Shown: piece after piece, positions 63,827 through 63,888 of the stretch
Layout: every line of letters starts with the position of its first letter
Position numbering within the stretch: position 1 is the stretch's first letter
From: Sphingosinicella microcystinivorans
GTDB lineage: Bacteria; Pseudomonadota; Alphaproteobacteria; Sphingomonadales; Sphingomonadaceae
DNA: 64,000 nt
Direction of reading: 5' to 3'
NCBI RefSeq assembly: GCF_003634215.1
Contig: NZ_RBWX01000009.1
Span: 248,001 to 312,000 of the forward strand
Position numbers and translations under genes: made by a program
The notes under the pieces: model-generated
The model's input: the letters and a program-made list of their open reading frames with translations, nothing else
Database searches by the model: none
Told to the model about the DNA's origin: nothing

Positions 63827-63888
63827 GACTCTTGCGTCAAGAGTCCATGGATTCAAAGAGTTGCAGAGTTAACTTAAGATTCCATTAA
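63827..63888 (-). promoter_or_regulatory. ccrM control region: four GANTC sites and a CtrA-type box
   Basis: GANTC sites are at 63827-63831, 63841-63845, 63850-63854 and 63878-63882. The first two sit in the arms of a 19-base perfect inverted repeat GACTCTTGCGTCAAGAGTC (63827-63845). TTAA-N7-TTAA, the CtrA consensus, spans 63874-63888 (TTAAGATTCCATTAA), with the fourth GANTC inside its spacer. All lie 56-117 bases before the ccrM ATG. In Caulobacter, ccrM is CtrA-activated and carries GANTC sites in its leader; the same is inferred here. Confidence 0.65.

Follow-up and report, generated by a model that had tools for sequence, protein, structure and literature searches.

To our knowledge, the timing of ccrM expression has been worked out mainly in Caulobacter and a few relatives. 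At one end of the 64,000-nucleotide stretch of Sphingosinicella microcystinivorans DNA analyzed here (hereafter the window), the DNA preceding ccrM raises the question of which regulators read this promoter and whether the methylase acts on its own gene through its target sites. An initial annotation had described the region as a cell-cycle switch in which methylation of one GANTC site, nested inside a CtrA-binding box, could feed back directly on ccrM.

The ccrM locus and its GANTC cluster

The product of ccrM contains both the N6_N4_Mtase domain and a C-terminal RAMA domain, is 98% identical to a same-genus protein, and is the sole match to CcrM in its genome at E <= 0.001. Its alignment to the NCBIfam CcrM model spans positions 4-349 of 350 and its score, 609.7 bits, misses the curated cut-off of 830; as the name of the model points to Caulobacter sequences, this shortfall lowers only the claim to that equivalog class. 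The gene rnhB lies upstream on the same strand and a dihydropteroate synthase gene lies downstream. The GANTC cluster and the CtrA-type box both fall within the 208-bp gap between rnhB and ccrM (Table 1). Near relatives with names include Sphingosinicella soli and metagenome-assembled genomes (MAGs) from Sphingosinicella, so the guess of a probable sphingomonad was right. The genome also encodes GcrA (145.5 bits) and NrdR (168.3 bits), both above cut-off, and a CtrA with 80% identity to a Caulobacter CtrA sequence.

Table 1. Features at the ccrM end of the window (window coordinates).
Feature	Position	Strand	Remarks
ccrM, adenine-specific DNA methyltransferase, 367 aa	62668..63771	-	ATG at 63771; Pfam N6_N4_Mtase and RAMA; NCBIfam CcrM model
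AGGGGG, probable ribosome-binding site of ccrM	63776..63781	-	inferred from sequence and position
CAAGGT, candidate -10	63811..63816	-	reads CAATGT in S. soli; spacer of 18 bp; assigned from the homologous TTGAC-N17-CA.... in the rest of the Sphingomonadales
GANTC in the -35/-10 spacer	63827..63831	-	kept in 6/6 genus genomes; equivalent to the order's first promoter GANTC
TTGACG, -35 element	63835..63840	-	kept in 6/6 genus genomes
GANTC adjoining the -35	63841..63845	-	kept in 6/6 genus genomes; makes palindrome GACTCTTGACGCAAGAGTC with 63827-63831
GANTC	63850..63854	-	kept in 6/6 genus genomes
GTTAACT, in place of the TTAACC half-site of other Sphingomonadales	63867..63873	-	32 bp upstream of the -35, beside the full box
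TTAATGGAATCTTAA, full CtrA-type box TTAA-N7-TTAA	63874..63888	-	GANTC 63878-63882 in spacer
TCGCAAGGGGTTGCGG, NrdR-box-like palindrome 2	63903..63918	-	invariant in 6 genus genomes; 8/16 to general consensus
CCACAAGGGCTGGCGT, NrdR-box-like palindrome 1	63935..63950	-	32 bp from box 2, 16-bp spacer; 9/16 to general consensus
Distal GANTC	63964..63968	-	kept in 6/6 genus genomes; apparently homologous to GAGTC before ACACC in other Sphingomonadales
rnhB 3' end	63980..64000	-	stop TGA 63980-63982; remainder of gene past the window edge

The four clustered GANTC sites reported initially are indeed there, starting at 63827, 63841, 63850 and 63878 and taking up 56 bp from first to last base (63827-63882), and a fifth starts at 63964. 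The background assumed for them, one site per roughly 300 bp, was too high: the window holds 112 sites where shuffled sequence predicts 316, that is, one per 571 bp, and the cluster is therefore rarer than had been claimed. This depletion across the window is consistent with GANTC being the sequence that CcrM methylates. In 452 kb of the 483-kb contig, at least four GANTC within 60 bp occur only at ccrM. The view of this region as the ccrM promoter region, in which the sites of CcrM itself are concentrated far above chance, is supported. As a side observation, the palindrome GACTCTTGACGCAAGAGTC (63827-63845), in which two GANTC are joined across the -35, is perfect in the window and has a mismatch in a single arm in some relatives.

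Promoter elements of ccrM in Sphingomonadales and beyond

We compared the DNA upstream of ccrM within the genus, across the order and in other Alphaproteobacteria. The genus alignment covers six genomes, our own included, all with ccrM; in the order as a whole, 285 of 296 genomes have a CcrM match. The Sphingomonadales set is not a random sample: it combines 30 loci with 76 of 80 named loci and 100 of 120 further matches listed, from which L118, L147, L180, L191 and L210 were dropped for having no recognisable DPPY motif, leaving 201 loci. Addition of L237 and L243 gives the 203 regions used to count GANTC, duplicates (L237 being one) included, while the unique set has 192 regions, 5 from the genus of the window and 187 from outside it. 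Six loci from MAGs with broad titles (L044, L069, L076, L077, L093 and L094) are counted as Sphingomonadales by assumption. The other Alphaproteobacteria, likewise not sampled at random, comprise 27 loci, 4 named loci and 58 of 60 further matches, 89 in total after L350 and L352 were dropped. Shuffled regions and ccrM or rnhB coding DNA served as controls.

Upstream of ccrM, the 203 Sphingomonadales regions (duplicates included) carry a mean of 6.27 GANTC per 300 bp, with at least 4 in 193 of them, versus 0.39 per 300 bp in adjacent coding DNA. The 187 unique regions outside of the genus have 6.40 per 340 bp, compared to 1.57 in shuffles, and the 89 regions from other Alphaproteobacteria average 3.06 per 300 bp. 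By this comparison, the GANTC cluster is a deep feature of ccrM. TTGAC is followed by a GANTC within 5 bases in 160 of the 192 unique regions, and in 121 of these 160 the two promoter GANTC are 10 or 11 bp apart. A strict double motif, TTGAC-N1-6-GANTC-N4-7-GANTCA, is found in 131 of 187 regions (0.05 in shuffles) and missing from 56. The pattern let the spacer that separates the C of the second GANTC from the -35 hexamer range over 13-21 bp, yet its length is 17 bp in 127 of the 131 and 18 bp in the other 4; in AT-rich members the same C begins the -10 (CATAAT, CATAGT or CATGAT). The middle base of the promoter GANTC varies among the 187 regions (GACTC, GAGTC, GAATC, GATTC), which selection on GANTC itself would lead one to expect, and the extended form YGAKTCK is fitted by only 15 and 16 of 131 at the promoter GANTC sites of the order. 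Among the five window sites YGAKTCK is fitted by 63964 alone and by none of the four in the cluster. Among the 89 regions from other Alphaproteobacteria, 36 contain a slightly looser double motif, with a 17-bp spacer in 30 cases, and 53 lack it. The conserved TTGAC-N-GANTC-N-GANTCA arrangement has the form expected of a GcrA promoter that would be read through its methylation.

The genus of the window departs from this pattern. The -35 and the first spacer GANTC are retained, so that 63827-63831 sits between TTGACG and the candidate -10, which is itself poor. The second spacer GANTC is absent; the corresponding bases are GGGCCA here and AGGCCA in S. soli, where others have GACTCA.

Searches of eight whole genomes with the strict double motif returned a single match, at ccrM, in each of G237 and G058, and two matches, one of them ccrM, in each of G195, G187 and G234; as these five were chosen for carrying the element at ccrM, only its uniqueness is informative. 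Our own genome and G304 have one match each, elsewhere, and G322 has none. The match in our own genome, at C2:661548, lies beside unrelated genes rather than at ccrM, and was set aside. The motif also precedes ftsK in two genera (G187 and G234; L378 and L384) and, in a third genus, an HNH endonuclease gene (G195; L385), which suggests that ccrM, ftsK and the HNH endonuclease gene may form a very small shared regulon.

Additional elements recur around this core. TTAACC, which we take to be a CtrA-type half-site, is found in 107 of the 187 Sphingomonadales regions outside of the genus (13 in shuffles), and TTAACCAT in 61 (0.55 in shuffles). TTAACC occurs 113 times on the ccrM strand and shows two preferred places relative to the -35: 72 copies are found 11-40 bp upstream of it and 34 farther out, at about 160-170 bp. 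The DnaA-type box TTATCCACA occurs in 38 of 187 Sphingomonadales regions (0.1 in shuffles), in part directly after the -10. The putative DnaA boxes are in line with a remark in PMC2877005 that DnaA sites at ccrM are found mainly where CtrA sites are lacking. The perfect DnaA-type box TGTGGATAA is found after the -10 in 21 regions (for example, L157, L165 and L193), its position counted from the -35 being +28/+29.

A proposed methylation-read promoter and its alternatives

Based on these data, we propose that the region is a ccrM promoter of the sigma70 type that is read through its methylation and receives several cell-cycle inputs, and we give this reading a probability of roughly two in three. 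What the sequence comparison shows is the TTGAC -35 with its spacer GANTC, the density of sites, the CtrA-type half-site and the tandem palindromes described below; from these we infer binding and regulation by GcrA, CtrA and NrdR at ccrM. In the proposed mechanism, GcrA together with sigma70 would read the methylation state (methylated or hemimethylated) of the spacer GANTC, CtrA would act at TTAACC or at TTAA-N7-TTAA, both of which lie upstream of the -35, and NrdR, a dNTP-sensing repressor, would bind the tandem palindromes. If GcrA reads the spacer GANTC, then CcrM would control its own gene through GcrA, whether positively or negatively. In the genus of the window, the missing second spacer GANTC and the full CtrA box at the place of the half-site suggest that CtrA has gained weight at the expense of GcrA.

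Published work on related promoters bears on this proposal. In Caulobacter, methylated GANTC recruits GcrA (PMC3667746) and a GANTC lying between the -10 and -35 elements distinguishes a time class (PMC4287350). An analysis of 13 alphaproteobacteria predicts ccrM as a core GcrA target, states that GcrA control of ccrM was lost in Caulobacterales, and reports no extended site preference in Brevundimonas (PMC7987155). The activity of Caulobacter ctrA P1 was not lowered by changing its GANTC (PMC3667746), so the GANTC of a GcrA promoter is not necessarily of consequence. In PMC2877005, methylation sites per promoter are counted, and the passages concerned draw no conclusion on control by methylation.

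The proposed promoter resembles the GcrA-sigma70 promoters of Caulobacter (mipZ, podJ and ctrA P1) in having GANTC between or next to the -35 and -10 in a genome that encodes GcrA and CcrM. It differs from them in that Sphingomonadales at large have two GANTC, in most cases at a distance of 10 or 11 bp and with the second fused to the -10, whereas the genus of the window has one spacer GANTC only, and in that YGAKTCK is mostly not matched. As in the prediction of PMC7987155, ccrM would be a GcrA target across alphaproteobacterial orders; that study scored YGAKTCK-type sites, and its account of ccrM does not describe the double-site spacing, the CtrA half-site or the NrdR-like boxes. Our comparison makes the printed prediction concrete as a promoter grammar from which one genus departs; its elements are a -35, a single or double GANTC with constant spacing, a CtrA half-site and a DnaA box that part of the order has; it also adds a possible dNTP-sensing input to the control of ccrM. 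The Caulobacter ccrM promoter has GANTC sites in its leader. It shares with the promoter studied here a CtrA-type box and GANTC sites before ccrM; here, however, the center of the box is some 77 bp ahead of the inferred start (its first base is about 84 bp ahead), and a TTGACG -35 with a spacer GANTC is conserved.

How much weight the CtrA-type box deserves depends on the comparison with relatives. The sequence TTAAGATTCCATTAA at 63874-63888 is the sole TTAA-N7-TTAA in the 64-kb window (0.04 in shuffles) and one of six genome-wide, and a GANTC does lie inside its seven-base spacer (63878-63882), as had been noted. In its original form, the feedback proposal held that CcrM methylation of this nested site could alter CtrA binding. 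A CtrA orthologue is encoded, and the box is intact in all six genus genomes; the nested GAATC, however, is kept in only four of them (our own, G262, G446 and G447) and reads AAATC in G448 and G445, the latter region being identical to that of S. soli, with the box unharmed. Even close relatives thus differ in whether the nesting is present. None of the 187 other unique Sphingomonadales regions has a full box, and although 9 of the 89 regions from other Alphaproteobacteria do, none of their 11 boxes has a GANTC in the spacer. For a gap of 208 bp that contains five GANTC, we put the probability of finding one entirely inside a 7-bp spacer at about 7% (a rough estimate, 3 positions x 5/208), which makes the overlap alone weak evidence. 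Measured from the inferred start, the box would also lie farther upstream than the Caulobacter CtrA boxes, placed at -39 and -49 (PMC4287350). On these comparisons within the genus and the order we reject the nested box as a conserved device and consider a direct loop through it quite improbable; the idea of feedback as such is reasonable. The GANTC nested in the CtrA-type box is a local, unfixed variation, and the conserved, putatively methylation-sensitive feature is instead the GANTC within the -35/-10 spacer and, outside of the genus, often within the NrdR-like boxes.

The box could nevertheless matter without its nested site. A promoter of the Caulobacter type, in which activation in the genus comes chiefly from CtrA bound at the full box and GANTC near or after the start serve only to shut ccrM off, would account for a box present in every genus genome, and the missing second spacer GANTC recalls the stated loss of GcrA control in Caulobacterales (PMC7987155). 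We nonetheless consider it unlikely: neither TTGACG nor its spacer GANTC varies within the genus, and the -10 that would place the box near -45, at 63844-63849, is variable (CATGGA, TGCGGA or CACGGA). For this variability within the genus, a second promoter with TTAACT as its -35 and this -10 was set aside. An explanation that dispenses with regulation, namely that GANTC gathers merely because intergenic DNA tolerates sites that coding DNA selects against, agrees with the under-representation of GANTC in coding sequence and its more than 1.5-fold average over-representation between genes in alphaproteobacteria (PMC3973325). The excess at ccrM is 16-fold over adjacent coding DNA and 4-fold over shuffles of the same regions, the sites in ccrM promoters have fixed spacing, and the 452 kb contain no other cluster of four, which makes this account very improbable indeed; against these coding and shuffle controls, we reject unselected enrichment on the excess together with the spacing. 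A sigma70-type promoter read through its methylation is the reading we prefer. As a separate observation, the genome has 6 full TTAA-N7-TTAA sites versus 12 for a reversed control pattern, and the full box is not enriched; given this rarity, CtrA in the genus may mostly use other sites or half-sites.

Tandem palindromes upstream of the promoter

Upstream of many ccrM promoters we find tandem CWANNNNTWG cores, mostly 32-33 bp apart. In the window, the two cores are 32 bp apart, box 1 has one mismatch, and neither contains a GANTC. Pairs at 31-34 bp with at most one mismatch occur in 68 of the 192 unique Sphingomonadales regions, whereas shuffles give 1.75 and none of 200 coding stretches has one. 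When scored with an NrdR box consensus, 101 of 192 regions reach at least 12 of 16 (1.1 in shuffles) and 35 at least 13 (0 in shuffles); outside of the order, 8 of 89 regions reach at least 13 (0.10 in shuffles). In coding DNA, a score of 12 is attained by 8 of 262 stretches and a score of 13 by none. The window boxes score 9 and 8 of 16, and those at the nrdA promoter of the same genome, whose cores CAAAGTCTGG and CAACAGCTTG are also 32 bp apart, score 9 and 12. Among nrdA loci of the same family, 17 of 26 usable (of 31, with up to 1300 bp scanned and no shuffle control) have a pair at 31-34 bp, some of which may be due to chance.

Based on this evidence, the tandem palindromes are perhaps an NrdR operator, and control by NrdR would be a second layer, less certain than that of GcrA and CtrA. 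Like the operators that NrdR uses at ribonucleotide reductase genes, they comprise a pair of CWANNNNTWG palindromes whose spacers are mostly 16-17 bp; they differ in preceding a DNA methylase gene and in that GANTC is often found at the inner edges of the boxes outside of the genus. The second of two GANTC runs into box 2 in 98 of the 187 regions outside of the genus, with the two 20 bp apart in 92. Both boxes conform to this arrangement in 84 of 187 when up to two mismatches are allowed; exact matches occur in both boxes in 12 and in at least one box in 108. A search of 12 genomes, most of them chosen for carrying the element so that only uniqueness is informative, found exactly one match to ACTCWANATNTWGTGK in each of 11, always before ccrM. 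We tentatively extend the proposal, at slightly less than even odds: ccrM would belong to the NrdR regulon in Sphingomonadales and other alphaproteobacteria, with GANTC at the inner box edges in about half of the Sphingomonadales regions (such as CTAGGGATTGAGTC...GACTCAACATCTTG, with the two GANTC 20 bp apart), and hemimethylation upon replication followed by remethylation could switch NrdR binding. If true, the dNTP sensor of ribonucleotide reductase would also control the cell-cycle methylase, and the supply of DNA precursors, replication and methylation would be coupled at one promoter.

The palindromes might instead bind a factor other than NrdR or form RNA hairpins close to the end of rnhB, a reading to which we assign a real but minority share. 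In its favor are the poor match of the window boxes to the general consensus, the appearance of a box at the rnhB end in some alphaproteobacteria (judged by eye), and the 124 of 192 Sphingomonadales regions without a pair at one mismatch or fewer. A spacing of 60-110 bp upstream of a -35 is an unusual place for a repressor, and this is approximately where the window boxes lie; a second promoter near them was sought by eye, and none was convincing. Among the papers listed by our literature searches we found none linking NrdR with ccrM; those containing both terms have them in unrelated passages, and PMC12186491 does not mention ccrM. Against this reading stand near-perfect boxes such as ACACAAGATATTGTGT in other alphaproteobacteria, the like pairs at nrdA loci and the spacing itself: NrdR binds box pairs with 14-17 or 24-27 bp spacers (PMC12051234), and the 16-bp spacer in the window falls in the first range.

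Two further conserved blocks were noticed. The stretch ATCGCAAGGGGTTGCGGTCAAG (63898-63919), which is longer than the NrdR-like box alone, is invariant in the six genus genomes. Between the NrdR-like boxes and the promoter, L010, L015, L017, L018, L021 and L023 share a conserved block, GGANTCCTTT(T/C)GTTC or similar.
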